Both the position numbers and the translations under genes were made by a program. Shown in pieces: positions 3,178 to 44,741 of a stretch of 64,000 nucleotides of DNA. Origin of the DNA: Phymorhynchus buccinoides (Eukaryota; Mollusca; Gastropoda; Neogastropoda; Raphitomidae); the NCBI GenBank assembly GCA_017654935.2, contig CM065690.1, positions 18,541,540 to 18,605,539 on the forward strand. Reading direction: 5' to 3'. The stretch's first letter is position 1. Every line of letters starts with the position of its first letter. The notes under the pieces are model-generated. The model saw only the letters and a list, made by a program, of their open reading frames with translations. It searched no databases and was not told the DNA's origin.

Positions 3178-5674
3178 CAATGGAACCTCCCTATTAATGA
3201 CTTGAAAAAAACATCCAAAATAAGGTCTTGAGTGGAAGGGATTGTAATAGAGAGGTCATTTTAATACTTACATAGAAGGGCAATGTCTCAGAGAAGTATA
3301 GGTCTTAAGTGAGAGGGAGTCGTAATAGGGAAGGTCTTATGTTATAAGGACAGGACAGTCTCGCACTCAGTGACAGTCACAGGCACTACGTGGGGTAGTA
3401 GGCGTATTTATTGCGTTTTCTTCCCAACAAAGCACACCTGGAAAATACACAGAGCCAGGCATAAGCATCAACCCAGTATACATGCATAAATATGTCGTCA
3501 TCAACAAACACACTGATCAGGATCCTACCACTATTTTCGGAATCTGCAATGCAAACCGATTATGTGACACCCATGTATATTTTATACACAAACCTAGTGA
3601 GCCTACCAGTCAACAGACTCGCTACAGACAGGCCTATCTAGCCTGCGATCCAACCCACTAATATAAGGGGTGCTTATTGAGGGAGGGCGAGAGAGATTAA
3701 TACATGCATTTTGTATTAACAGTCTCACTTATTTTTAATGTTTATATTCATTGATACTTGTCTTCATGTTGATTATTCTTGGCTTGGTGTTTATCTGTAT
3801 GTTCGTGTTTAGGCCTTTGTTCAGCGCTTTGAGCACCCTGCAAAGGGAGTTAAGCGCTCTATAAATAACCAGTATTATTATTATTATTATTATTATTGCC
3901 ATACTCGGCTACTGAGTGGCAAAGATAGAACCATAACTGGTGCTAATGTGTCACTTAACAAACTGATAGTGGCTAGGCTGATCAAGTCCAAAATAGATGA
4001 CACACGCACAACTTAATCCATACCCCAAATTGTTTTATTAAGAAAAGTAAGAATGAAAACTAAGCTACTAAACAACATTTGAATGAAGAAAAAGATAATA
4101 AACCATCGCCTATACCAATCACATAGACTAAGTGTCTACTTCCTCAAAAGTGTCAACATGACTCGGTGATTGGTATCCAAAAACCTATGTGTAACTCAAA
4201 ACTCATCTTTTGTAGCCCTCGGGTCTAATAGTTACCTAGCATTTGTTGCATATCAGTAACTGCCATTACACGTGAAGAGGCTGTCAAACATAGTTACACA
4301 TCATGTAATACCCCAAAATCAAGCCAAAGCTTCACAACCCCAAACAAGTGCTTGCAAGCATAATAGTACTCAACACGGTTAACCAGTAAAATAATAGCTG
4401 CAAAATGAGACAACAAAACAATAACATGAAAAGAGATAAAGGCATTGAGGAGAAGGGGAGGGGAGGCAGAAGAGAGACAAGGAAATGAGTAAAGAGAGAA
4501 AAGAGGGGGGGCACCAAGAAAGAGGAACGCGTGACTGTAAAACTCGGCTAGCCATTGCGGCCTAGCAAGAAATCTCATCACATGATTAGGCCTGTCGTAA
4601 TGACATGCTACGATCCTATCCATCCAGCCATTAACTAGACTAGCTAAGATGAGTCGGCGTAAGTCGCCACAATAACCATCATTGCGTAACTGTAGAACCA
4701 ATCATGTGTATCGGTGAATCGCTTACACACATTAGTGGTTCTAGAACAAAAACCCAGTTTCACCATCTGACACAACATGGAAACAATTTTACATCAAAAT
4801 GTGTGCTTTCATCAAACAACAAAAGTTTCGTCCCCAAAGCAAATCAATCAGCATGATATTCAAATGAAACAACACAAATGCAAAACAGAAACACGCAACT
4901 GATAATGTGAGAATGTAGAGACAGAGAGAAAGGGGGGGGGGGGGGAAGAGAGATAGGTGGGGGTGGGGGGGCGTGGGGGGGAAGAGAGATAGATTCCGCA
5001 GCGCGCAGTCATTAATTCTTGACTAGCCGACAATTATCCGGCGATGGGGCTCACAGCGCGAGCAACATTGTTTTATCAACACAACGCCTGCACAATGGAG
5101 GCTAATTACACAAAGCCGGTTTGAAAGCCTGAAGATCTAGATCAAAGTCCTTTCCGTCATCATCGCCTCAGTAAGCAAGTTAGTTTTAGAAAGATAAATC
5201 CAACATTTGATGATTAGATCAAACTGCTCTTTGCCACTTTACCGATTTGCCGCGATCGTAGGAAATGCATAATACGACCATAATATTAATCTACTGAACA
5301 TAGGCACATGTTTATAATATTCTAGCATCACATAAACAACACAATAACAATTTAAATGTTCAAATATACTCACAGCATTGGCTATCGCCAAAGTCAGTCT
5401 CAAAACAGCTTCAACCAAAGGTAGGCCTACAACTTAACTTCGTCGCCGCCGGTCTGAATTCAAAAGAGAGACACTACGGCTAGTCAAACAAGGGAGAGGG
5501 GGAGCACCGATTAGCCAATCAGTTCAAAGTTAATCAATGCTGACCAACCGGCACGCGAGTCTGGGATCTTCCTCATGACTGACCATCTTCCTCGTGACTG
5601 ACCAGCTAACGTTGGCCTGACGCACTATGGCGTTAAACTGCACCCTACTACACTTAATAGGGAGGTTTCCACAG
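3178..5674. mobile_element. pogo-like MITE split by a 2.3-kb insertion
   Basis: The left part starts TA-CAATGGAACCTCCCT and follows the MITE family seen intact at 10,909 and 18,753 up to about 3,350. The right end (AATAGGGAGGTTTCCACAG-TA) reappears at 5,654-5,674. Together they rebuild one element of about 195 bp, so the interval between looks like a later insertion. Confidence 0.65.
3350..5653. other. unidentified inserted segment
   Basis: About 2.3 kb lies between the two MITE halves. It contains a LINE/SINE-like tail (AAGCGCTCTATAAATAACCAG plus ATT repeats, 3,850-3,895) and a G-rich run at 4,932-4,980. I recognise no transposase, polymerase or long plausible frame. The 135-codon minus frame at 4,294-4,701 has no familiar motif. 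Confidence 0.45.
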
Positions 5675-24849: not shown

Positions 24850-25160
24850 TATACTATATTTCATATATATATATATAAACGTACAAGAATTGAAGAAGAA
24901 AAAACAACCACACCTTTAAACTTTCCTCTTATATACTTTGTTTGTGTCCAATGTAAAAGTTTGTGAACCTAAGAGAGAAACTCAATCAATTTAATTTTAA
25001 CTTTCCGATTTGTTCTATGTGTTCTGAAAAGAATAAAAGAAAATAATGTGCTGATTTACTTTTTCTCCCAATGAGGGAGATAGACAATGCCTATGCAAAG
25101 ACAGCTGTTTCGTCTTTGAGAAAGACTCTTCAGTCTGCATATCGGCCTGCAAAGAATGCC
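24850..25160 (-). mobile_element. hammerhead-bearing element, minus copy
   Basis: Reverse complement of this segment matches 40,300-40,610 along its length: ribozyme, CATTGGGAGAAAAAGTAAATCAGCAC, TCTTTTCAG, the TTAGG..CACAAACTT block and the CAATTCTTGTACGT tail. It lies 68 bp from the left end of the DIRS element. Confidence 0.85.
25092..25141 (-). ncRNA. hammerhead ribozyme (type I, minimal stem III)
   Basis: On the minus strand: stem I TATGCAGA/TTTGCATA (8 bp, one G-U), core CTGAAGA, stem II GTCTTT-CTC-AAAGAC (6 bp), GAAA, stem III palindrome CAGCTG, cleavage triplet GTC. All invariant core bases are present; the A in CTGAAGA falls at variable position 7. Identical in design to the copies at 40,317 and 40,980. 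Confidence 0.9.
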
Positions 25161-25425: not shown

Positions 25426-25654
25426 AATACATTTTTTCCAACTTGGAGCAGCCATGTTGTTCTTTGCTCTTGCAATTAATTTGTTTATCTAACTTAATCT
25501 GTCGCCATCCTCCCTTCTGTTTGGGTTGCCCCTTTGCTTTGGGGCTACAGGTTTGTCGGCACGTAGTTTGTGTGAATTATTTTCACGTTTTTCATTGCTA
25601 AATAATTTTTTGAAATATTTCGTTGTACTTACATGCTTTGTGCCCCCGGTCGCC

Positions 25655-28177
25655 ATGTCGTCCGTCGATCCTGTAGTATCGACTCGGTCTAGTGGGGCTT
25701 CCAGTAAGCAATCTCGGGATGATAAGGGGAAGTTTTCGAATACGCCTCAGGCTTCTTCTTCTTCTAGTTCTCGCAAACATTCTAGTTCGAAGTCTAAGTC
25801 TTCCTCTTCTTCGTCGTCGAAGAAGGAGCAACCCCCCACCCCTCCTCTCCCTCAACCTGTTGTTTCTGAGTCTCCTGCGGTTGTTTCAGAGCAGATTATT
25901 TCCTTGGTGGATTCTTCTTCTCTGGTGTCAGATATGCTTGCGGAGTTTAAGAGTAAGGGGTTAGTTTTGGTTCCGTCGGCCTCTTTGTCCGATTTGTCAG
26001 TTAGACCTGGTAGGCCTTCGGACACGACAACTGACTTGACTACGGACAAACTCGCAAGGTACTCTCATGAGAGTCAAGGAAATAACCAGTGTGTACATTC
26101 GCCTCTCTTTGCCACGGATGATAATGATTTTCCTACTCTGTACTCAGTTGAGCAGCTGGCCCAAAGAGAGCGGACTACGGGCATCTCCATCTTCCCACGG
26201 GAGGAAGACCTCGAGCGGGATGGACGGTCCTTCACCCAACGTGACGTGGAAGCTGATCGCTCCCTCGACCGCCACAGGAAGCCCCAGACGGACTCCGTTC
26301 CTGACTACGGTTCTCGTACTCGTGAAAGCGAATATCTCCACACTCAAAGTGAATGGCAATTCCGTAGCCCGCGCAGGGCCAGTGGTACGGATACTCTCGA
26401 TGATCAACAGTTCCGTAGCCCGCGTAGGGCAAGAGGTACGGACTCTCCCAATGATCAGCAGTCTCGTAGCCCGCGTAGGGCGAGAAGTACGGACTTGCAT
26501 TATACCCAGCAGAGCCGTTGCCCGCGTAGGGCCTTGTCGAGGCGGACTCTTGAACCTAGAAATATCGATGACGGCTACGGCTACCCGTCACGGCCCATTC
26601 ACGGACCAACCGTGTCCGTTACCCGTGCCAGCGGCACACGGCCACCCATCTCCACCGTCACGGACACCCGTCACGGAGCGGCACCATCGGCGGCGGACCG
26701 GCCGATGCCTACTCTGGAGCCTGTTTCACGTCATCCTGGCCCGCGTCGTATGGATGAGTTTCAGCTTCCAACGGATGCTTATCTGGCCAGACACCCCTCG
26801 AAGCATTATGAAGCGCTGCCACGAGAGTCATCCGTGGATGAAGAATTTGAGTTGTCGCCTCGTGAAGATTTGGATGACTTCGACTTAGCCGTCCGTGACG
26901 AAGTATTTCGCATCATGAGAACTGGGTTTCCGGGATCTCAGCGGTCCCCGACGAGATCTGACCACGACGACGATCAATTCTCTCAGTCTGAGCGGAGCAG
27001 TGGTGTGACTGAACCCCCTGTGTATTCCGACCCAATCCCTTCGACGGGCAATTATCAAGGCTATCTGCATATCCTTCAGCCCTACTGCAGGGACATCAAG
27101 CCGATGGTGCAGCTCGAATCAGCTCAGACGGCGGGACAGCCACAGTTTTTTGGCGAGCTGCAGGCGCAGAAGGAAGCTCGACTAGCGCTTCACACCTCTC
27201 CGTTCGTTCGGCAGGCACTTCGTAAGGCTGACTCTATCCTGTGGTCTCAACCGCCACCGTTGCCTGTGGATGACGACGACGTCTCTCCTCCCCCTCAGCC
27301 GGAACCTGTCCCGTCTCAACCCGGCGCCTTTGTGAAGAAGGACTTCTTCCCACCGTTTCAGCTTGCTAATCCCTTTGTGCCTGTGCCTTCGCACTCGGAT
27401 GTGTCCCCGCAGGAGCGTTCCTCCCTTAGCTATAGGCGCAGAATGAGGCAAACTTCAGTCTTCATGGGCCAGCCGGCCTTCAACAACTTGGAGAGATCCA
27501 TGTACTCTATTCTTCGAGCCTCGTCGTTAGCCACGTCAATGCTTTAGTCCCTGGCGCACATCGCCGGTTCAACGAACACTTCCAAACCTGAAGACTTTAG
27601 GCTGCGTGATGACGTCGATGAGCGTGCCTTGGGGGCTGCCTTGGCTTCACTCAACCAAGCTGTGAGCTCCATTTCGTCCGTGGCCTCCTCTTCTAAGGTG
27701 CAACTAGCGGCCACGTTCAGGGACGCGGACCTCAAGGACCGTAAAGTTCCTCTCTCCCTGCTGGATCGTTCGACCATTCGTTCTGGCCCCACTGATCCTC
27801 GCTCTACTTTTCATCAGGCTTCCCTCAAGGACAACCTGGAGCGGGTCAAGAAACGGAGACTGGACTGGGGCCAGGAACGCATCATGGAGTTGGCTACCAG
27901 GGCTGCCGGCCAGGGGTTTGCTTCCCCCCAAGCCAAGCACGCGCGCATGGACTTCAGGCCTCCTCCTCATGTCTCCACGAGAACCAGTTCGTCTCGAGGG
28001 CGTACCTTTCGCTACCCCAACTACCAGTCAGCGGGCCAGCGACAACGTCCCCCTTTCCAGCGTCGCCCTTTTTCCTCTAGCCGCCGTCCCCCGTTCTCGG
28101 GACGGGGTTCGGGCACCTCGGGTCCGTCCCGATATGGCCGTACCCCGTTCCCAGTCCGGAAACAGCCTTTTCAGTAG
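25655..28177 (+). pseudogene. DIRS gag-like protein, one in-frame stop
   Basis: The likely start is ATG 25,655 (MSSVDPVVSTRSSG), downstream of an earlier in-frame ATG at 25,526. The N-terminus is serine-rich (SSSSSSRKHSSSKSKSSSSS). A central block repeats RSPRRARGTD-type RS motifs four times (26,360-26,540). The C-terminus is basic and arginine/glycine-rich (PPFQRRPFSSSRRPPFSGRG), fit for nucleic-acid binding. TAG at 27,545-27,547 interrupts the frame (MLstopSLAHIAG); the same frame continues to a second stop at 28,175. Single-base decay of an otherwise intact gene is the simplest reading. Function by position, as DIRS gag proteins are poorly conserved. Confidence 0.8.
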
Positions 28178-31143
28178 TGCCCGCACGACCTTTGGAGGAC
28201 TCAGGCGCTTCGACTGGCTCAAGTGTGGGTTCCCTTCTGAAATGCCTTTCAGAATGGGAGCACTTGGTCGAAAGCCCTTGGGTCCTTCAGGTCGTGCGGG
28301 TCGGCTTCAGGTTCCCCTTTTCCAGGGAACCTCCCTTGTCTGCCCAACCCATCTCGTTCCCGCCCCCGCAAGACCAGTCAAAATTCGAAGCGATCGACAG
28401 AGAAGTCACTGCGCTCTGTCAAAAGGGAGCCATTGTACAGATTGTGCCTACGGAACCGGGATTCTACTCTCGTCTGTTCGAGCGGAGAATTTCGCCCGGT
28501 CTTGGACTTGTCCCCCCTCAACAAGTTTATTCGCACCGACAAGTTCAAAATGGAAACAGCGGCTTCAATCCGTCTCTCCATTCTCCCGAACGACTGGGCT
28601 ACTTCCATCGACCTGAGAGACGCATATTTTCACGTGGGCATCCATCCTTCACGTCAGCGTTTCCTTCGCTTCGTCTGGAAACACAGGACTTATCAGTTTG
28701 TTGCCCTTCCGTTCGGCCTGTCCCCGGCCCCTTGGATTTTCTCAAGAATCACCAAGGAGCTCGTTCGTCTGGCCAGATCCCAGGCAATTCGTCTACACGT
28801 TTACCTGGACGATTGGTTGTTGCTAGCAGCTTCGCAAGCCCTGTGCCTTTCGCAAACAGACACTCTTGTTCGACTGTCCAAGACTCTGGGTTTTCGCATT
28901 CACGACGGAAAATCGGAGCTGACTCCGTCAACCTCCTTCAGCTACCTCGGCATGAAGTTCGATACGGAGCGGTTTTCAGTGCAACCATCGGAAACTCGGG
29001 TCAAAGCCATCTTCGAGATTGTTTCGACGTTCAGACAAAAGACTTCGCTCTCTGCTCGTCAGCTTCTCCGTCTCCTGGGACTTATGGAATCGGTAGTGGA
29101 TTTGCTTCCTCTCGCACGGGTGCACAAACGGCCACTGCAACGACTACTGTCGCAAAGGAAACTGTCTCAGCTGCCTCTCGAGCAACTAGTGTCTCTCGGC
29201 AGTTGGTTCCTCGAGTCGACGGAACAGTGGATGAATCTCGAGTGGCTCAACAGCTCGGTACCTATCCGTCCCATGCAACAGCAGCAATTTCTTCACACAG
29301 ATGCCTCGACGACGGGCTGGGGCGCCCATTTGGATTGAGTCGAAGTTTCGGGTCAGTGGACTTCGGCAGAGAAGAAATTTCACATCAACCTCTTGGAGAT
29401 GGAGGCAGTAGCCAGGGCCCTGAAGTCTTTTGCAGTCCTTCTCTCCGGGAAATGGGTCACCGTCTGCGGAGACAATACGACAGCTCTCTCATATCTTCGT
29501 CGCCAGGGAGGAACACGGTCTCCGGCTCTTTCAAGGAAAGTAGAAGAGATTCTCCTCTGGGCCCAATCGAGACAGATCGTGCTTTCAGTGGAATACGTTC
29601 CGGGAAAGTTGAACGTCCTAGCGGATCAGCTGAGCAGGAAAGGACAACTTCTCCCCACAGAATGGACCGTCGCTCACCGATCCCTCCTCCCACTGTGGCT
29701 CCTTTGGGGGAAACCTCACGTGGACCTTTTTGCCACAAAGTACAACTGCAGGCTTCCTCTCTATGTGTCACCTATGAGGGACCCCCAGGCACTAGCGCGC
29801 AACGCTTTCTTGATCTCCTGGACAGGAATGTCAACTTATGCGTACCCTCCGACGTCACTTCTCACCAAAGTGCTGGAGAAATACTGCCGCGACAGGCCCC
29901 GCATGATTGTCATCGCCCCGTTCTGGGAAACAAGCCCATGGTTCCCAGAGCTCAAGAGCCTGTCTCACGTCCCAAGCTTTCCGCTTCGTCTCACAAGAGA
30001 CACTCTGCTTCAGCCTCGCACCGGTGTAGGACACGCCAACCCCCAACTGATTCAGTTGACCGCATGGCTACTATGCGGGCCGGACTGCGAGCACGACTCT
30101 TACCAGACAAGACTGTTGACCTAGTCCTTAAGGCTCGTAGACAGAGTACCAATAAGCTATATGACATTAGGTGGGCTTCTTGGTTCGGGTTTTGCACGGC
30201 CCATGACATTCCTCCCTTAGCCCCGTCTGGTCCACAGTTCACCCAGTTTTTAGCTCACCTGTATCAGGACCGCGGCTTATCCGCCCAAACTTTGAGTGGT
30301 TACAGGTCTGCCGTTACTCATACCGTTGCTGTGGCAACTGGCAAGAAGTCTCCTGCTTTTTCTTCAGCCATTGAAGTCTCTCATCTCATTGATGCTGTAC
30401 GCAATGTTTCTGTTTCGTCCGGTGTTCGCCTCCCTCAGTGGGATGTTTTTCTGGTCCTCTCATTTTTTAGGGATAAATGTGAGCCCATGTCCTCTTTGTC
30501 TTTGAAGTTGCTAACATTCAAAACGGTTTTTCTTCTCTCTCTGGCCACTGCTAGGCGGGTTAGCGGTGTTCATGCTCTTAGTGGTCTTGGTTCCGACGTT
30601 GAGTTCAATACTTCGGATCAGTCAGTCACTTTGTCCTTTCTGCCCGAGTTTAGGGCCAAGAATCAGCCTGCTCAGATTGCTTCTCCCTCGGTTACGGTTC
30701 AAAGTCTTCGCACTATTCTCGGCCCTGATGATTATGATAGACTCCTGTGCCCTGTCAGAGCTCTTAAGTTTTACCTTAAGAGGACCTCCCCCTTCCGGGG
30801 GCACAAACGCCGTCTGTTCATTTCTTTGAACGAGAAGTACATGAGGGATATTTCGAAGTCAACCATTTCTAGGTGGTTAGTGAACGCTATTAAGCTAGCG
30901 TATATAAGTGCCGACAAGTCATTGCCCACTAATCCCCTGAGAGCCCATGAAATCCGAGCTATCAGCACATCCCTGGCTATGATTAAGGGAGTGGCGCTGT
31001 CCAGCGTTATGGAAGCTGCGTACTGGAAGTCACAGTCCACGTTTACTAGCTTCTACCTTCGCCATTTCTCCGCCAGAAGGCAGGACGACACCTTTGGCAT
31101 CAGGAAGGTGGTGCTTGCGCAGACTCCTGTTTCTCTGGCCTAA
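28177..31143 (+). CDS. DIRS tyrosine recombinase (C-terminal part of an overlapping frame)
   Basis: One frame stays open for 988 codons, but only the part from about 30,040 reads as protein. It shows a SAM-like N-terminal domain (LKARRQSTNKLYDIRW, LSAQTLSGYRSAVTHT) then the catalytic domain: arginine in ATARRVSGVHAL (about 30,548), RAHEIR (HxxR, about 30,945), and AAYWKSQSTFTSFYLRHF with the nucleophilic tyrosine. It would integrate the circular DIRS DNA. The upstream two thirds overlaps the polymerase gene in another frame, as is usual in DIRS elements. No stop lies in the recombinase part, so it may be active. Confidence 0.88.
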   Translation: MPARPLEDSGASTGSSVGSLLKCLSEWEHLVESPWVLQVVRVGFRFPFSREPPLSAQPISFPPPQDQSKFEAIDREVTALCQKGAIVQIVPTEPGFYSRLFERRISPGLGLVPPQQVYSHRQVQNGNSGFNPSLHSPERLGYFHRPERRIFSRGHPSFTSAFPSLRLETQDLSVCCPSVRPVPGPLDFLKNHQGARSSGQIPGNSSTRLPGRLVVASSFASPVPFANRHSCSTVQDSGFSHSRRKIGADSVNLLQLPRHEVRYGAVFSATIGNSGQSHLRDCFDVQTKDFALCSSASPSPGTYGIGSGFASSRTGAQTATATTTVAKETVSAASRATSVSRQLVPRVDGTVDESRVAQQLGTYPSHATAAISSHRCLDDGLGRPFGLSRSFGSVDFGREEISHQPLGDGGSSQGPEVFCSPSLREMGHRLRRQYDSSLISSSPGRNTVSGSFKESRRDSPLGPIETDRAFSGIRSGKVERPSGSAEQERTTSPHRMDRRSPIPPPTVAPLGETSRGPFCHKVQLQASSLCVTYEGPPGTSAQRFLDLLDRNVNLCVPSDVTSHQSAGEILPRQAPHDCHRPVLGNKPMVPRAQEPVSRPKLSASSHKRHSASASHRCRTRQPPTDSVDRMATMRAGLRARLLPDKTVDLVLKARRQSTNKLYDIRWASWFGFCTAHDIPPLAPSGPQFTQFLAHLYQDRGLSAQTLSGYRSAVTHTVAVATGKKSPAFSSAIEVSHLIDAVRNVSVSSGVRLPQWDVFLVLSFFRDKCEPMSSLSLKLLTFKTVFLLSLATARRVSGVHALSGLGSDVEFNTSDQSVTLSFLPEFRAKNQPAQIASPSVTVQSLRTILGPDDYDRLLCPVRALKFYLKRTSPFRGHKRRLFISLNEKYMRDISKSTISRWLVNAIKLAYISADKSLPTNPLRAHEIRAISTSLAMIKGVALSSVMEAAYWKSQSTFTSFYLRHFSARRQDDTFGIRKVVLAQTPVSLA
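28178..30124 (+). pseudogene. DIRS reverse transcriptase-RNase H, two lesions
   Basis: The N-terminal part (WVLQVVRVGFRFPFS, KGAIVQIVPTEPGFYSRLF) lies in one frame up to about 28,478. The rest continues in the next frame (GEFRPVLDLSPLNKFI), pointing to a small deletion where a VPKK-like motif is expected. Motifs: ATSIDLRDAYFHVGI, FVALPFGLSPAPWIFSRI, catalytic YLDD at about 28,803, FSYLGMKFD. RNase H follows: HTDASTTGWGAHLD, LLEMEAVARAL, GDNTTALSYL, NVLADQLSR. TGA at 29,336-29,338 breaks it between the first two. The end (VDLFATKYNCRLPLYVSP, AYPPTSLL, MIVIAPFWETSPWFPE) is the conserved DIRS post-RNase H region. These lesions should prevent a full-length product. Confidence 0.88.
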
Positions 31144-33679: not shown

Positions 33680-36600
33680 TTAGAAATTGTGGCCAAAAGA
33701 TGATTTCAAAATTGCCTCGGCAAACCAAACGAGTGGGGACCACTCCCTTGGACCAAAAGCAAAAATGGAGTTTTGGGTAAATGTAATATTGGCTGTTTTT
33801 AGTTGTTGAAAAAAGTTTGTAAATTGAAATTGAATATAATTACATGGGTTAAATAAGTGATCTAAATTTAGGGTTTTTTCGCATTCACAAGTAAGGTTTT
33901 TAAACTTACAGTAATGGGAACTGGTTCTGAGTCGAAATATTAGGGATTGAATTTTAGGTGTTACGGAGAGAAATAGCCCTCCCTGGACTATTTTATGATC
34001 CCAGGAGTGAGCTTTGGCATATATTTCCAATTCTTTGGCCCACTCCTGGGCAACTGAGGTTTTGAGTAAAGTTTTAATTTCCCTAACCGACAGATTGATG
34101 TTAACGACGCTGCCGGCTTGACCCGAAGCGGCCCTTTTGGCCTCTCTGTCGGCCGCGTCGTTACCTGCCAGGGCACAATGGGAGGGAATCCATACAAGTA
34201 AAACTGTTGTTCCTTTGAGATGTAATTGTTGCACTAGTCTATATTTCTTATTTCGTTTTTTATTTCGGACCGATTTTGATTATTTCCCTGTAAAGAGTGG
34301 ATTGAAGAAAGGGAATCTGAAAATATAACTATTTGTGTGGGGGAGTTGGGTAAATTATCAATAAATACCAGGGCTTCCAAAATGGCCCAGAGCTCAGCGG
34401 AAAAAATGGAAATATTATTATTTCATTGAAATGCTTTTGAAATTTTCAGGTCAGGGATACTAAAGGCACATCCTATTTGATGGTTACTTAATAGGGACCC
34501 ATCAGTAAATATGGATAAGTGTCTTAATTTATAGATTTTCTCCTTGGCTGCAACGGTTAAACGGTTCAGGTCATTCTGTTTGTCATATAAATGGTGAAGG
34601 GATATGTCAATGTCAGGGGGATCCCAGTCCCATTCGGGGGGTCTGTGTTGTGGAAAGGGTGCAATATTTTCCAAAAGGAGATCTGAACTTTCAAAACGTT
34701 TTTCCGAAAAGTCATAAATATTAATGTGTTTTCCAGTTGCAAACCAAGGATCCGAAAAGGAAGAAAGAAATTCTCCCTCCGAAAAGTTATTGGATGCGTG
34801 TACTCTAGTTAGAAATGTAGCACAATTTAATTTTAAAAGGTGGGTCAGTGGCAACCAGTCAATATCTCTGTATAATAGTTGGGTTACAGCGTATCTTGGG
34901 AGACGTAGGGCAGTTTTAAGCGCTTTAGTTTCCGCTCTTTGTAAAGTGGTTACATTAGTTTTGGTAAGAGAATAGTATGCTTCCATTCCATACGTTAGTC
35001 TAGATCTGACGAGCGTACGGACTAAATAAGTCAAAAATTTAGGGTCTTTAGCCCATGATTGTCTGGCTATTACTTTAATAAAATTTAATGCTTTAGAGGC
35101 TTTACTAGTCAGATGTTCAATGTGTTGAGTCCATGACAAACCTTTAGTCAGGATAACACCCAAAAATTTAACAGACTTGACTGCGTTTTTTACTTCGTCA
35201 AGAATTCTGAGACTGTAGTCACAGTCACCGTATGTGGAAAAAACCATAAAGTCACATTTATTAGGGGATAAGGTAAAGCCGTTATTATGTAAATATTCAA
35301 TGATTCTGTTAGTGTTAATTTGGTGAATTAATAGTTCAGGATCAAGATTGGTTTTATGGCCGCGGGGGGTGTTAATAGACCAGATGGCGATGTCATCCGC
35401 GTACATGGATATTTTACAATTTTTAAGTTTTAGTTTTGAAATATCATATATCATAATATTGAAAAGGGTGGGGGCTATTATGCTACCCTGGGGCACCCCC
35501 ATGTCAAGCTGATGAGCAGAGGAGACTGATTGGCCTACCCTGACTCGCATACTTCTGTTATGTAAAAAGGACATTATAAAGTTAAACATATTACCCTCAA
35601 TGCCGAGGTTGCTGAGTTTATCTAAGAGCCTCCCATGCCAGACGGAGTCGCATGCTCCTTTTATGTCAAAAAAGGTGGCAAAGACTTTTCTGCGACGTGC
35701 AAAAGATCGTCTGACGTGGGAGGTTAACCTTACTACTTGTTCCATACAATTTCTGTGTCTTCTAAAACCTGCTTGGAACTTGGGGATAATATTGTTTTTA
35801 TCGAGATAGTACTCGAGTCTGTTTTTTACGATACGTTCGTAGATCTTTCCAAGGTGGGGGGTGAGGGAGATGGGGCGGTAACTTTTGGGATCCCTAGCCG
35901 GCTTTCCAGGCTTAAGGATCCCAACCACCTGTGCTTCCTTCCAGGCTTGCGGCACGGTTCCCTCACCCCAACATCTGGAGTAAAAATCGTGAATTATTTT
36001 ACGAAACACTAAGGGGAGTTGTTTTATAATTTGATAGGAGATAGGATCATCTCCTGTTGCTTTACTGACTTTCTTAATTTGATTTATGGATGCAGCAAGC
36101 TCGGCAAATTTGAGTGGGGAATTAATATAGTGGGAGTTATCTTGTGATTTTACATGATGGGGATTACTTTGGCGTTTTATTTTTTCTTTAGTGGGAAGGA
36201 ATTTAATTTGACTAGCTTCGGCAAATGTCTCTGCCATAACATTTGCCGTTTCTAAGTTAGTTGTGGTAAATTTATTGTTTTTAATCACTCTGGGCTCCCT
36301 TACTTTATTCCGATTATTCATGCTTCTAAGCTTTTTCCAAGCCTTACTGAGGTCTCTGTAATCGAGGATTTCCTCTTTATTAAAGTAGTCCCGTTTAGCT
36401 TGATTAATAATATCATTACAGTATTCTTCCGCCTCTAACTTTAAAATATGATTAGGGGGGGTGGGATGTATGTCAAAGCGATTGCAAGCTTTTTTCTTTG
36501 CTTGTACTGCCCTTTTGACCTTCGTTCCACCATGGTTTACTTTTAGGTTTATTTGTATTTATTTGAGGCAAAAGGGGAATAGCTATATTACAGGCGTGCA

Positions 36601-36700
36601 AAACAGTTGTCCGTATATTGCCGTTTTTTTGGCCTTTGTGTATCACCCCCCGTGGGGCCACAAGCCAGTGTGGCTAAGCGCATCAAGTTGCTGTTCGGTC
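33680..36700 (-). pseudogene. LINE ORF2: reverse transcriptase and RNase H
   Basis: It begins around INTNKPKSKPWWN (about 36,530), the linker after a LINE endonuclease, with nothing of the endonuclease before it. RT motifs: SYRPISLTPHLGKIYERIV, FQAGFRRHRNC, TFFDIKGACDSVWH, GVPQGSIIAPTLFN, catalytic YADD (about 35,395), KFLGVILTKGLSW. RNase H: IFTDGSL, SAELWAILEAL, FSDSLSS, WIPSHCALAGNDAADREAK. A TGA at 34,423-34,425 and a frameshift near 34,245 interrupt RNase H; a frame break near 36,480 precedes RT. It ends SSFGHNF at 33,680. In I-type elements this enzyme copies the RNA at the nicked target; this copy cannot. Confidence 0.88.
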
Positions 36701-36749
36701 CCATAGAGATGGCTGTTGGGTTACTAGATGGAGGGAAGAGGGAGACTAG

Positions 36750-38677
36750 TCCCTCGAGTAATCATTCTGGCTTGTTCGTTGTTCTAGCTTTCGCCATGTG
36801 TGTGAGAATGTCTGTCATAAGGGTTTCGGCTGTGTGTTTTCCTGATTGTTGATCGCGATTAAATTCAGAAGGGGGAGGGCATTGGGGTCGAGTGGTCGTT
36901 GTCGTAGAGGAGTGTGGTTGTCTGATGTCAGTTTGTGTGTCTGTAGGTGTGAGTGCTTTGAAGAGTCTGTCCATGTGTGTTGTCAGTTTTTCAATGGCTG
37001 TTGTCATGTGTCGGTTTATCTGTTCAGTCACCAACGTCTCAATCTGATGTAAGGTTGCTTTTTTTGTCAGTTGTTGTTTTCTCTCAAGTGCCTTAAGTCG
37101 AAGGGCACGAGTTTGTGTGCTAGTCAGTCTGGGTCTAGTTGGGTATCTGACTCTGGGGGGTCTGTTTGAGTGGGGGGGGGTTGATGAGGGGAACGTGGGG
37201 GCGGGCGTTCCTTTCATTGTTGAATTATTTCCCTTGTTATTGGTTGTGTTTACGTTGGGGGCAGGTTGTTTTTTGGGTGGGGTATGTGGTTTTGTCAACA
37301 CACTAGCGTATGTGTTGTTTGCTGATGTGGGCTTGGGCTCTGTGTTCCACCAGGGGTCAAGTTGTAATTGGGGGGGGGGGGGGGGGTGGGGGGGTCATCA
37401 GGGGGGGGGGGGGGGGGGGGGGGGGGGAGGGGGGTAGTACTTTTGATTGTTTTTCTGTTTCCAGTGCCTGTTTGGCCCGGCGGATTGCTTCTGAGTAGGG
37501 GATAAACACCTCGGCCCTGATTTTATTGGCTTTGAGGTGAAGCTGGTATTCTGGGCAGCCATTGTATGCGGCGGAATGCGGGCCCCCACAGTTGATGCAT
37601 TTAGCTGTGGTGGCCTCACAGTCCTTGGCCACATGACCGGACCCTGTGCATTTTGTGCATATGAGCTTCTTTGCACGGCACTGTTCGGCATTGTGGCCGT
37701 ACCGTGCACACTGTCTACATCTCCTGACAGGGGCAACAAAGGGATAAACACTATATTCGGTAGCAGAGATCTGAATGTATGATGGCAAGGTTGGATTATT
37801 AAAAGTGATTTTAAGGGCCCTGGAGTTCGACCCGTCCCTGTTTCTCAGACGCATGATGGATTTGGCGTTTTCAATATAGGGAAGTAGGTCTTGGGCGTCC
37901 TCACCGAGGGGTATAGGTTTGATCACCCCCTCAGTGGTGGCGGTTGGTATGTAACATTTAATTGGGATATTTGATATTTGCTGCAACCGAGCCAGTCGGG
38001 TTTGCTGATCGGCGGACTGACACCCGATCAGCCAGCGGTTGTTGGCCAGGGGTCTCCTTGACTGTTTATAAAATTCCAATGGAGCCCTTCCACATTTTCA
38101 TGGCGGACACGGGGCCAATACCACTGATGGTGGCTGGCCCCGTACATAGATCCTGTACAATGACAGGAAACCTGACAAATGTGGGTGGTGGTAGGGGCTG
38201 GTTGGAATGAGATGGTTTGTATGGGCGTGGTGGTACATTTTTCTGGGGGTTCTGTTTTTGTTGTTGGTCCTCTGACTTAGCTCGGGGGATTTTGAATTTG
38301 TGGACATGGCCATCTCTACTTCGTTTGTTTGATTGTTTGTGCTGGCAATTGTGTCCATGCTGTTGGAGGCACGAACAGGGGTCGTGACCTCTCTGTCGTG
38401 TTCCTCCTCGTGATCTGCGTGAGTTTCGGGGTCAGAATGGGTTTGAGAGCGAGCGCTCTCTCCCTCCATGTTTCTGAGCTCTTCTTTCGGTTTTTTTGGG
38501 GGTCTTTTTCTTTTGTGGGACTGGGACTGGACCCTGACCCTGGTTTTCTCAGTCTTTTACGGGAGGGAGTGAAAAGGACAAAGACCCCCTCTGTTGTTGA
38601 CGCTCTTGGCGTGGTGTTGTTGTCGCTAAAGACTGCGTCGTCTGGCGAGTTATTTGGCGATTCCTGTACTATTTGTT

Positions 38678-38850: not shown

Positions 38851-39085
38851 CACTATGAAAATTTTTTATGTACACATCCAAGAAACAAAAGACATGGGAA
38901 AAATCATAAAGGGAAAGTGGGTAAAATATTGGGTTAGAAAAAATATATATATACACACAAAATATTTATCAATGCGGCCTGCCGAGCCAAGAGGAACTAC
39001 ACTTTACTTGTTAATTTTCGACCCCAGCGAAACTCGGGACTCGAGCAAGCTCGAGATTTTAATGTACCGACTTTTTAAATCTTTG

Positions 39086-39670
39086 AAGGCTGGGAGGAAA
39101 GGGCCCGGAGCCCCTGTGGTCCCGTAGAGTAGAAGGGGCGTCGCATGGAGTGAAGTCCTATTTAGGCAGTGGCGAGCATTGATATTGACGGGTGGGTGGT
39201 GGTGGGGCAACGCGGCTCCTCTTCTTTTCTTCGCCTGCGGTGGTAGGCAGGCAAGCTGAGCAGAGTAGCGTGACTGCGTTGCGCTGTGGCTTTCTTCGCT
39301 TCTCTTCTTTTTCACGTTCTCGCTTGAGCTGAGCTGAGCTGTTGTCGCTTCGGCGGCCAACCTTTTCTTTTCTAAATTTTTGTAGGCTGGGAGGAAAGGG
39401 CCCGGAGACGGAGTCCCCGTGGTCCCGTAGTGTAAAGGGAGCGTGGTATGGAGCGAAGTCCTCTTTAGGCAGTGGCGAGCATTGATATTGACGGGTGGGT
39501 GGGTGGTGGTGGTGGTGGGGCAACGCGGCTCCTCTTTTTTTCTTTGCTTTGCAGTAGTAGGCAGGCAAGCTGAGCAGTGTAGCGTGACTGCTTTTGCGCT
39601 GTGGCTTTCTTATCTTCTCTTTCTTTTTTCTCGTTCTCGCTTGAGCTGTTGTCGCTTCGGCGGCCAACCT
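39086..39670 (-). repeat. two 297-bp tandem monomers upstream of LINE ORF1
   Basis: GGCTGGGAGGAAAGGGCCCGG starts at 39,088 and 39,385. Both copies hold GGCAGTGGCGAGCATTGATA and end TTGTCGCTTCGGCGGCCAACC. Position 5' of a minus-strand LINE suggests promoter monomers, but they could be an unrelated duplication. Confidence 0.8.
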
Positions 39671-39734
39671 CTGAATCCTTCGTATTGGTTTCTTCGGTCG
39701 CGAGGTAAGTATGGGAATCGACTTCGGCTTCGGC

Positions 39735-39895
39735 CTGTTGCAAAGAATGCCCACAGTGAACATTCAAAAACTGAGCTAGAAGACTTTCTCCAAGAGAAAG
39801 GTTGTCCTCTTTGCACCAGATTGAAAGTCCACAATAAAAGCCAAACCAGCACTTAATTCAAAAGAAAATGATAAAAATCTTGTGTAAAATAAAAA
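39735..39895 (-). repeat. inverted arm of the hammerhead element
   Basis: TGCAAAGAATGCCCACAGTG ... TTGTCCTCTTTGCACCAGATTG ... TTGTGTAAAAT is the reverse complement of 40,160-40,320, so this end can fold back on the first tandem unit. Confidence 0.85.
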
Positions 39896-40316
39896 AAATA
39901 ATAATGTTCTAAAATGTTCTAGATATGTTTCTATAAATGTTTCTATAAATGTTTTTGGAAGAAGGAAAGCGTATCAGTCTACCTGATCCAGGCACACCTC
40001 TCTACAATTCCTCTCCTCACCGGGAGTATGTTGGTGTTTTACTACGATTTCTATGACCTCCCTTATTGAATCCTTCACTGGATCCACCAACATGGCATCC
40101 CATCTCTTCTACTCTCTTCGAGGGATTGTAACTTTAGAACATTATTATTATTTTTGTTATTTTACACAAGATTGTTACCATTTCTTTTTGAATTAAGTGC
40201 TGGTTTGTTTTTTTTATTGTGGACTTTCAATCTGGTGCAAAGAGGACAACCTTTCTCTTGTAGAAAGTCTTCTAGCTCAGTTTGAATGTTCACTGTGGAC
40301 ATACTTTGCAGGCCGA

Positions 40317-40366
40317 TATGCAGACTGAAGAGTCTTTCTCAAAGACGAAACAGCTGTCTTTGCATA
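40317..40366 (+). ncRNA. hammerhead ribozyme, unit 1
   Basis: Stem I TATGCAGA (40,317-40,324) with TTTGCATA (40,359-40,366); core CTGAAGA; stem II GTCTTT/AAAGAC with loop CTC; GAAA; CAGCTG as minimal stem III; GTC at 40,356-40,358 with predicted cleavage after 40,358. The palindromic stem III suggests it works best as a dimer. Confidence 0.92.
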
Positions 40367-40979
40367 GGCATTGTCTATCTCCCCCATTGGGAGAAAAAGT
40401 AAATCAGCACATTATTTTCTTTTATTCTTTTCAGAACACAGAACAAATCGTAAAGTTAAAATTAAAGTTATTCAGTTTCTTTCTTAGGCTCACAAACTTA
40501 AATATTGGACACAAAACAAGTTTTTTTCAAGCAAACTACTATTATATATAAGAGGAAAGTTTAATGGTTTTGGTTGTTTTTTTTTCTTCAATTCTTGTAC
40601 GTTTTTATATTATACTTGGAAGAAGGGAAAGCTGCATCAGTCTACCTGATCCAGGCACACCTCTCTACATTCCTCCTCACTGGGAGTATGTTGGTGTTTA
40701 CTAACGATTTCTATGACCTCCCCTTTATTGAATCCTTCACTGGATCCACCAACATGGCATCCCATCTCTTCTACTCTCTTCGAGGGATTGTTAACTTTAG
40801 AAAAACATTATTTTTTTTGTTATTTTACACAAGATTTGTTACCATTTCTTTTTTAATTAAGTGCTGGTTTGCTTTTATTGTGGACTTTCAAATCTGGTGC
40901 AAAGAGGACAACCTTTCTCTTGTAGAAAGTCTTCTAGCTCAGTTTGAATGTTCACTGTGGACATACTTTTGCAGGCCGA

Positions 40980-41029
40980 TATGCAGACTGAAGAGTCTTT
41001 CTCAAAGACGAAACAGCTGTCTTTGCATA
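40980..41029 (+). ncRNA. hammerhead ribozyme, unit 2
   Basis: Identical 50-nt sequence to the copy at 40,317. Predicted cleavage follows 41,021, exactly 663 nt after the first site. Confidence 0.92.
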
Positions 41030-41374
41030 GGCATTGTCTATCTCCCCCATTGGGAGAAAAAGTAAATCAGCACATTATTTTTTTCTTTTATTCTTTTCAG
41101 AACACAGAATTAAATTGTAAAGTTAAAGAAAAAATTAAAGTTATTCAGTTTCTTTCTTACTTACTTACTTAGGCTTTACAAACTTAAATATTGGACACAA
41201 AACAAGTTTTTTTCAAGCAAAACTATATATATAAGAGGAAAGTTTTTAATGGTGTGTGTTGTGTTTTTTCTTCTTCAATTCTTGAATGTTTCTTATATAT
41301 ATATATAAAAAGTAATATAGAAAAAGTATAGAAAAAGATAGTATATAGAAAAAGATAACCATATATATAGGTAT

Positions 41375-41725
41375 GAACAAATTTCAGTATACTGCTGGCA
41401 CCATTCCCCCCAGCCTACGGGACTCAAAAGTTAGAGCATTTGAAATGCAATAATAATAGAATTTTATGAAACTTTTTTTGTCCCTATGTCTTTGATGTGA
41501 ACATTTAAAAATCAAAACCAGTTAAAATAATTTGGTGTTTGATTATGTTCTTTAAAAAAAAAAAAAAGATGAAATAAAGAGTGCTAGATTAGTTTTTCCT
41601 CCTTATTAGGGAGGCAATGGCAGAACCCAGCCGAGGACAGCTGTTTCGACTCTAGGGAGTCTTCATCAGCTCGGCAGTTGATTGAAGACTCCCCTAGAGT
41701 CGGAAACAGCTTCCGCAAAATTGTA
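41375..41725 (-). mobile_element. second hammerhead-element family, copy A
   Basis: Matches 55,680-55,985 over TGCTGGCACCATTCCCC, GTTAGAGCATTTGAAATGC, AAAGAGTGCTAG and AGGGAGGCAATGGCAGAA. It keeps the order of the 663-bp family (GTGCT-AGATTAGTTTTTCCTCC, GGGAG, CAATG, ribozyme) though the sequence differs. 41,680-41,720 carries a decayed inverse ribozyme (GAAGACTCCCCTAGAGTCGG, AAACAGCTTCC). Confidence 0.8.
41630..41675 (-). ncRNA. hammerhead ribozyme, second family
   Basis: Minus strand: stem I GCCGAG/CTCGGC (6 bp), CTGATGA, stem II GACTC-CCTA-GAGTC (5 bp), GAAA, CAGCTG, GTC. The core matches the consensus at every position, while the stems differ from the other family but keep pairing. Confidence 0.93.
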
Positions 41726-42949: not shown

Positions 42950-44400
42950 CCCTACTCACTCCACGGGTTTTAGGGTTGTACTTGTAGTGCTAGATTGTAA
43001 ACTCTTTTCATGTTATAGTGTTAGGTTGTTACTCGATCTCTACTCATGTCACTAGTTTTATTGCTAGGTTGTAACAATGCTCATGCCATTGGTTTTTGGA
43101 ATGTTGTAACTCTGCTAATGCCTTCAGTTTTAGGGATGGGCTAAGTTGTAACCCTGCTAATGCCTTGGGTTTTAGGGTGGTTGTGCTAAGTTGAAACTCT
43201 GCTAATGCCTTCAGTTTTAGGGATGTTGTGCTAAGTTGTATCACTGCTAACGCCTTGGGGTTTAGGGTAGTTGTGCTAAGTTGTAACCCTGCTAATGCTT
43301 TGGGTTTTAGGGATGTGCTAAGTTGTAACTCTGCTAATGCCTTGGGTTGTTTGTTTTGTTGCACTAAGTTGTAACAATACTCATGCCATTGGTTTTAGGG
43401 ATGTTGTGCTAAGTTGTAACCCTGCTAATGCCTTGGGTTTTAGGGATGTTGTGCTAAGTTGTAACTCTGCTAATGCCATTGGTTTTAGGGTTTTAGTGCT
43501 AAGTTGTAACTGCTAACGCCATTTGTTTTAGGGTTTTAGGGTTTTAGTGCTAAGTTGTAACTCTGCTAACGCCATTGGTTTTAGGGTTTTAGGGTTTTAG
43601 TGCTAAGTTGTAACTCTGCTAATGCCATTGGTTTTAGGGTTTTAGTGCTAACGTTGTAACTCTGCTAACGCCATTGGTTTTAGGGTTTTAGTGCTAAGTT
43701 GTAACTCTGCTAACGCCATGGGTTTTAGGGTTTTAGTGCTAAGTTGTAACTCTGCTAACGCCATTGGTTTTAGGGTTTTAGTGCTAAGTTGTAACTCTGC
43801 TAACGCCATGGGTTTTAGGGTTTTAGTGCTAAGTTGTAACTCTGCTAACGCCATGGGTTTTAGGGTTTTAGTGCTAAGTTGTAACTCTGCTAACGCCATG
43901 GGTTTTAGGGTTTTAGTGCTAAGTTGTAACTCTGCTAACGCCATGGGTTTTAGGGTTTTAGTGCAAGGTTTAACCCTACTCACGCCATGGGGTTTAGAGT
44001 TGTAGTGCTGGGTTGTAACCCTACTCATGCCATGGGTTTTAGGGTTGTAGTGCTGGGTTGTAACCCTACTCACGCCATGGGTTTTAGGGTTGTAGTGCTG
44101 GGTTGTAACCCTACTCATGCCATGGGTTTTAGGGTTGTAGTGCTGGGTTGTAGCCCTACTCATGCCATGGGTTTTAGGGTTGTAGTGCTGGGTTGTAACC
44201 CTACTCACGCCATGGGTTTTAGGGTTGTAGTGCTGGGTTGTAACCCTACTCACGCCATGGGTTTTAGGGTTGTAGTGCTGGGTTGTAACCCTACTCACGC
44301 CATGGGTTTTAGGGTTGTAGTGCTGGGTTGTAACCCTACTCACGCCATGGGTTTTAGGGTTGTAGTGCTGGGTTGTAACCCTACTCACGCCATGAGTTTT
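42950..44400. repeat. 45-bp minisatellite, telomere-like core
   Basis: The unit GTTTTAGGGTTGTAGTGCTGGGTTGTAACCCTACTCACGCCATGG is near-perfect from 43,980 to 44,400 and decays toward 43,000. It starts about 35 bp after the transmembrane exon donor. The length is a multiple of 3, so long frames appear on both strands; they are not genes. TTTTAGGG motifs resemble telomeric repeats. Confidence 0.96.
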
Positions 44401-44741
44401 AGCATTTTAGTGCCAGATGCCTACCATCACAGCAGGCTTGTATTTGTCCCGGAAAGTAAGAAAATGTGGAAAATTAAAATTTTCACTGCCTGTTCCAGTA
44501 GATAAAAAATCGCCAATTATAGAAATTATGAACTGCCATAATTGTGGAATGCAGCCGTTATCAAAGCTTCTGATTGGCTGATGTTACTTCCTGTCAGAAA
44601 TGGTGCAAAATAGTTGAATAAACCCAAAGGGTATTTTGACTGGGTTGCGCAAATGTTTTCTTCAGCAAAGAAGGAAGTAACTATTAAACAATCCCTGATG
44701 TGGATAAGGGCTGTTCATCAAGAAAACAAAACATCTACTTT

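Follow-up and report, generated by a model that had tools for sequence, protein, structure and literature searches.

We found that two identical hammerhead motifs in a 64,000-nt stretch of the Phymorhynchus buccinoides genome (hereafter the window, meaning the whole stretch that was analysed) belong to a dispersed repeat family that is best explained, with a probability of about two in three, as a long retrozyme-like, non-autonomous retroelement, which carries a hammerhead of the type found in Penelope-like elements (PLEs) and would be copied from a fixed point by a borrowed reverse transcriptase. This reading builds on the hammerhead motif and its copy number, the anatomy of the arrays, their ends and microsatellite flanks, and covariation within the fold.

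The window contains two letter-identical 50-nt minimal type I hammerheads, 663 nt apart, on head-to-tail copies of a repeat unit. The preliminary description of this DNA had claimed two identical hammerheads at exactly this spacing, and both their coordinates and their letter identity were confirmed; a third copy of the hammerhead (25,141-25,092, minus strand) had gone unmentioned there.

40,317-40,366, plus strand: predicted hammerhead ribozyme 1, minimal type I, dimer type (descriptor, identity check, dimer fold); predicted cleavage after 40,358.
40,980-41,029, plus strand: predicted hammerhead ribozyme 2, identical (descriptor, identity check); predicted cleavage after 41,021.
25,092-25,141, minus strand: predicted hammerhead ribozyme 3, letter-identical (descriptor, identity check); predicted cleavage between 25,100 and 25,099.

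Each hammerhead consists of an 8-bp stem I, the core CUGAAGA, a 6-bp stem II with a 3-nt loop, GAAA, and a stem III of sequence CAGCUG. In the window hammerheads this last stem is the palindrome CAGCTG without a loop of its own, which supports the earlier suggestion of a self-complementary, dimer-type minimal form. Stem I is uninterrupted over its 8 bp and loop II has 3 nt, so that contacts between loop 1 and loop 2 are not evident when judged by eye. A strict descriptor matched three times in the 64-kb window, and a match was found in 1 of 200 Markov-shuffled windows. The Rfam hammerhead models, proposed earlier as a check, gave no hammerhead hit when the whole window was scanned at gathering scores, and none at E ≤ 10 between positions 39,400 and 42,000; the loop-less stem III is, we infer, the likely reason for this miss. 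A hammerhead-like motif of a different family lies just right of the element, at about 41,675-41,630 on the minus strand, with CTGATGA, one extra A, a GACTC/GAGTC stem, GAAACAGCTGTC and a 6-bp stem I (GCCGAG/CTCGGC); a degenerate, head-to-head inverted partner of this motif occupies about 41,676-41,715 on the plus strand.

Monomer positions are counted from the base that follows the predicted cut, with 40,359 as position 1 and 41,021 as position 663. Copies of the unit in the window are arranged as follows.

40,359-41,021, plus strand: predicted product of double cleavage, a monomer of 663 nt with 35% GC and without recognisable protein.
39,955-40,615, plus strand: unit copy 1, with which the direct array begins (monomer position 258).
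40,616-41,303, plus strand: unit copy 2, ending in a TA run at the usual 3' end of the family (equivalent to monomer 256).
39,730-39,913, minus strand: partial copy in inverted orientation, covering monomer about 446-621 and facing copy 1 head-to-head.
24,866-25,158, minus strand: solo 5'-truncated copy of the family with a TA run at its end, beside a DIRS-like element.

The two direct copies are 90.7% identical when copy 1 (39,955-40,614) is aligned to copy 2 (40,616-41,303). The foldback arm noted earlier at 39,735 proved to be real: the inverted copy at 39,730-39,913 is 89% identical to 40,133-40,316, and its outer end corresponds to monomer 621, immediately before the hammerhead would start at 622. 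Inverted copies that abut the 5' end at 85% identity or more are a minority feature, present in the window, L019 and L025 (3 of 39 loci), and L015 has a more diverged one. The 166-aa frame at 40,565-41,062 gives little ground for a coding unit: it had no Pfam match and is present in 1 of 99 units, that of the window. Read round the circle, the longest frame varies from 68 to 210 aa among the 99 units, and the longest ATG-started frame on the plus strand is 75 aa in 61 of them; with copies only ~1% diverged, the unit may still carry a small ORF. No match to the element was found in a plasmid collection.

Other repeats surround these copies. The solo hammerhead copy adjoins a DIRS-like retroelement on the plus strand (25,493-31,143), with a reverse transcriptase recognised by Pfam and a tyrosine-recombinase-like end recognised by eye only. 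Next to a minus-strand LINE (ORFs 33,680-38,097), on the side of its 5' end, are two direct repeats of ~300-317 bp (39,072-39,735) that may be its tandem promoter monomers, and tandem peptide-coding-like repeats, open on both strands, occupy 43,648-44,505.

The hammerhead is abundant throughout the 2.12-Gb assembly that contains the window. Among the protein matches that bear an organism name, Batillaria and Nucella rank best, with a coral, an abalone, a spider and a bacterial bin at lower ranks, as would fit a gastropod host. We obtained 1,872 matches (926 + 946) to the 53-nt hammerhead at up to three mismatches, and 5,859 (2,928 + 2,931) to the relaxed motif CTGANGAN{8,30}GAAACAGCTGTC; reversed controls gave 0 + 0 in both cases. 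Stems I and II both reach at least 4 bp in 140 of 145 matches in loci of this genome (L009-L046 and L077), and in 0 of 141 among the matches listed in the fetched prokaryote and IMG/VR loci that served as a control. At a first look, 39 were scored among 1,797 candidates. Our array sample consists of 38 fetched stretches from the listed best matches, plus the window, and because these stretches were picked from the best-scoring listed places, it represents the young, similar end of the family. The sample contains 41 array chains of 0-8 full units each, along with partial ones; 39 of these chains have at least one full unit, and the 99 full units in these 39 arrays (window included) range from 633 to 663 nt, with a median of 646. 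The unit of 663 nt described earlier is therefore right for the window copy and wrong as a length for the family; the window copy is also the most divergent of the mapped arrays (mean 0.030). The broader claim, a tandem hammerhead element without recognisable protein, held up: it is a multicopy family with other tandem arrays across the genome. A lack of other tandem copies had been named among the grounds for giving the idea up, and further arrays lie on many contigs. Older related families with the same CAGCTG and different stem II sequences occur at L024 (reverse complement 40-986), L022, L033 and L018; at L024 the starts of two copies are separated by 568 bp, which means that the wider family has shorter units as well.

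We found that the 3' ends of the arrays are nearly fixed and the 5' ends are not. The 3' flank is readable in 37 chains, and 31 of these stop at monomer 256, which is 256 nt downstream of the predicted cleavage site (four other chains are masked), with the following exceptions.

L013 and L015: 3' ends at 222 and 219, respectively, each followed by a TA run.
L019: 3' end at 251, against an inverted copy.
L036 and L045: 3' ends at 195 and 180, respectively.
L032: a break in the chain, the final piece of which likewise stops at 256.

The 39 readable 5' ends are scattered over 32 positions, from monomer 2 to 621. TATATA or ATATAT occurs within 12 nt of the end in 28 of 39 5' flanks and 26 of 37 3' flanks, over a background of 934 in 35,423 random 12-mers (0.026) drawn from the non-array parts of these loci. 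The pattern of a constant 3' end, variable 5' ends and a single favoured target suggests target-primed reverse transcription with 5' truncation. Because the 3' end lies 256 nt past the last cut and the sequence is continuous across the cut site where units join, the template would have been a circle or an uncut multimer; judged from the sequence of the ends, a simple linear RNA cut at both hammerheads is excluded as the insertion template.

Units are more alike within arrays (mean distance 0.0045, 151 pairs) than between them (0.0094, 4,700 pairs; 0 of 2,000 permutations). L035 is an exception, being no more uniform inside (0.0114) than outside (0.0099). A unit had its nearest neighbour within the same array in just 31 of 80 cases, a figure in which many units are identical and ties were broken by order. 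Two hammerhead haplotypes, with A-U or G-C at one stem II pair, are about equally common in the sample (44 and 42 full units), a ratio that is based on the fetched arrays. Both haplotypes occur together in 3 of the 35 arrays with at least two scored hammerheads (L017, L021 and L035), a count that leaves out hammerheads missed by the pattern in our script; when haplotypes were shuffled, the mean was 24.7 mixed arrays and none of 5,000 shuffles was as low as 3. This uniformity within arrays and the rarity of haplotype mixing suggest that an array usually grows from one unit. Arrays are not perfect clones, or simply copies of one circle, since 30 of the 85 variants in 12 arrays of at least four units are at intermediate frequency (38 occur in one unit and 17 in all). 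Units that share such an intermediate variant are not preferentially neighbours (68 switches against 66.5 expected, in 26 patterns), which speaks against local duplication by crossing-over, and unequal crossing-over is accordingly not favoured as the source of the arrays. The variation is compatible with rolling-circle copying with error hot spots or with the copying of multimers, both of which would fit.

The two haplotypes represent a natural compensatory change at a single stem II pair (G-C or A-U), which suggests that the fold is under selection. Genome-wide, we counted 252 exact places with the A-U haplotype and 28 with the G-U intermediate, the one intermediate included in this count. 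In 18 distinct motifs among the 45 matches listed, 67 of 72 cells in the first four stem II pairs hold standard pairs, compared with a maximum of 61 in 5,000 shuffles. Among seven chosen relatives, four of five stem II pairs are changed on both sides; this count was reached by 17 of 500 shuffles and the covariation score by 0 of 500, and further pair types numbered five against 6.0 in shuffles, which is below chance. Stem I is nearly invariant among relatives and so gives no covariation test, and young copies show no extra conservation of the hammerhead over the rest of the unit (10 of 51 columns polymorphic versus 87 of 592). Across these comparisons, the hammerhead seems to be constrained as a fold between haplotypes and families: its core and stem II are conserved and covarying, as in functional hammerheads, and helix III takes the expected form only as a dimer.

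As a single strand, the hammerhead has a non-native best fold (-13.2 kcal/mol), with native stems I and II alone at -8.9. For two strands, the lowest-energy fold is exactly a double hammerhead with an intermolecular stem III made from the palindrome (-32.1 kcal/mol). The predicted dimer gain of -5.7 kcal/mol was bettered by 3 of 29 shuffled-hexamer draws and nearly equalled by others; we dropped dimer free energy as evidence, since shuffled hexamers were no worse and CAGCUG was not singled out. The argument for a dimer comes instead from conservation of the palindrome, present without a loop in 16 of 16 diverged rows that reach this site (from BLAST without that constraint), and from published dimer behaviour in newts, axolotl and PLEs. 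Because stem III is a loop-less palindrome, cleavage should need two hammerheads, and the cutter appears to need a partner copy, by analogy with newts and PLEs. Folded as a 663-nt circle, the unit is somewhat stabler than shuffles (z -2.7, 60 shuffles).

Compared with published systems, the element is retrozyme-like and, as far as its anatomy indicates, works like both animal retrozymes and PLEs. It shares with animal non-LTR retrozymes (Cervera and de la Pena 2020, PMC7229834) tandem copies from dimers to long multimers (0-8 full units here), low GC (35% in the window monomer), a type I hammerhead in the unit, the lack of LTR, PBS and PPT, and thousands of copies. Axolotl retrozymes in that paper also cut better as dimers, one class having a helix III with a palindromic tetraloop. 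Animal retrozyme units are described there as about 150-450 bp long, mostly with canonical loop-loop hammerheads, whereas here the units are ~646 bp (633-663 nt in 99 units), loop 1-loop 2 contacts are not evident by eye, insertions usually end 256 nt beyond the cut and the target is a TA repeat; mussel members, too, are without most of the contact nucleotides. Plant LTR retrozymes (PMC7229834) are non-coding and resemble the element in having 600-800 nt between hammerheads, but they have type III hammerheads in LTRs, GC above 55% and 4-bp target duplications, in contrast to the type I topology and 35% GC found here. Satellite hammerheads of newts and axolotl (PMC6155905, PMC7229834) resemble the element in their tandem units, very short helix III and dimer activity, published for them and predicted here, and differ in their ~330-350-bp units and in the conserved loop contacts of one of the two axolotl classes.

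With PLEs (PMC7761336, PMC6155905, PMC3846280, PMC11167929), the element shares a minimal type I hammerhead without helix III, tandem pseudo-LTR (pLTR) copies, a head-to-head inverted copy (a partial terminal repeat, in 3 of 39 loci here), 5'-truncated copies, a start of reverse transcription downstream of the hammerhead and a preference for AT-rich DNA. Unlike PLEs, it has no reverse transcriptase or GIY-YIG ORF within or between units. We thus do not class it as a canonical animal retrozyme, because of its unit length and loop contacts, or as a PLE, because it has no such ORF. The preliminary description had taken tandem hammerheads as the mark of a retrozyme, which the published animal definition does not support, the unit being too long and the contacts not evident. 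It had also suggested that the family may be undescribed: we found no description of the family in the literature searched, and the kind of element is already known. No gastropod element of this kind is described in the open-access literature searched, and the primary PLE-hammerhead papers may hold one.

PLEs with GIY-YIG domains are numerous in the genome, with 150 scored among 705 candidates. Using 7 of 109 PLE homologues as tblastn queries, we detected PLE coding sequence in 2 of 38 array stretches, in the flanks, and none in the window. At L053 the TA end of a unit abuts a PLE ORF, and at L029 the TA run of an array is followed by a PLE endonuclease fragment. L063 is the sole one of 30 GIY-YIG loci with a unit-type hammerhead in the ~0.7-1.75 kb downstream of the stop; its unit is 5'-truncated at monomer 189 and lies ~27 nt after the PLE stop codon. 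The other 29 loci had none over the same distance, some stretches being masked, and further loose hammerhead matches near PLE stops have 0-1 stem II pairs and are not hammerheads. We rejected L063 as an autonomous parent whose 3' UTR gave rise to the unit, and read it as a junction formed by a template jump or an insertion, because L053, L055 and L056, from the same PLE family, carry a different 3' UTR. The 3' regions of five sampled PLE loci resemble the monomer over short stretches only (best E 0.009). A published PLE enzyme initiates within its template at a point downstream of the hammerhead and favours AT-rich DNA, and in vitro it can work without hammerhead cleavage (PMC11167929); this start and this preference match the ends found here. 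A few suggestive junctions thus make it likely that PLEs mobilise the element, though the tie is weak. No solved structure was found for the PLE protein of L048. We also observed a third hammerhead-like type, CTGACGAAGCTTC..GAAGCGAAAC without helix III, in L034 (reverse complement ~3,790-3,840), where it stands upstream of PLE coding sequence, and in L077 (~1,320-1,370); this type is possibly the ribozyme of autonomous PLEs.

The units could instead be debris, each a pLTR plus UTR of an autonomous PLE that has lost its ORF, with copies made from PLE mRNA. Minimal hammerheads without helix III are published as a PLE kind (PMC6155905, PMC7761336), a head-to-head inverted pLTR beside direct pLTRs is published PLE anatomy (PMC3846280) that recurs in the window, L019 and L025, and the position of the L063 unit just after a PLE stop codon would be expected. 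We nevertheless consider this origin unlikely, given that all 99 full units follow one another in their arrays without gap or ORF, that sampled PLE 3' regions share so little with the monomer, and that 29 of 30 PLE loci, some of them with masked stretches, show no hammerhead downstream.

Two further readings are less likely still. Satellite DNA, with arrays made by unequal crossing-over and the hammerhead a relic, is consistent with tandem arrays and with listed same-strand A-U-haplotype motifs that span ~14.3 kb on one contig (C6:52,006,188-52,020,454); it is very improbable in view of the dispersal of arrays over many contigs, their usual 3' end, the TA repeats at most ends, the unclustered intermediate variants and the compensatory stem II changes. 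Nor do we give much credence to an animal non-LTR retrozyme of the published type whose hammerhead has merely degenerated: the tandem structure, 35% GC and type I hammerhead agree with it, as do the published mollusc retrozymes, of which those of mussels are without most of the conserved contact nucleotides (PMC7229834), but the unit, at 633-663 nt, exceeds about 150-450 bp, no loop contact is evident with an uninterrupted 8-bp stem I and a loop II of 3 nt, and the loop-less CAGCTG persists in all 16 diverged rows that reach the site.

Under the preferred reading of a non-autonomous, retrozyme-like element, a transcript through at least two units would bring two hammerheads together. Their palindromic CAGCUG strands would pair as a shared stem III, and both hammerheads would then cut, as predicted from sequence and fold. 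The unit-length RNAs may be circularised by a host RNA ligase, on the model of published retrozymes. A borrowed reverse transcriptase and endonuclease, most likely those of a PLE, would open a TA microsatellite, and copying would start from one constant site inside the unit, 256 nt beyond the predicted cut, on the circle or on an uncut multimer. Copying of several rounds or units, stopping anywhere, would give arrays that mostly share a 3' end, differ in their 5' ends and have TA repeats on either side. The complete sequence of events, in which dimer-only hammerheads free units that become circles and are copied by PLE-type rolling-circle copying from one point into TA microsatellites to give near-clonal arrays, is a tentative proposal that we regard as possible rather than probable. 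If true, a dimer-only cutter would make the element self-limiting, because single-copy transcripts would stay whole and tandem ones would be processed.

Both the movement of retrozymes and the role of minimal PLE hammerheads are called open in the literature drawn on here. There are thousands of copies in the P. buccinoides genome, many of those sampled standing in near-uniform arrays whose ends are exact, and the compensatory stem II pair (G-C or A-U) provides a natural marker of individual arrays. With these features two questions can be tested: is the template a circle, and do PLE enzymes mobilise hammerhead RNAs lacking an enzyme of their own? Also present here is an abundant class of hammerheads that Rfam models did not report in the window scan.
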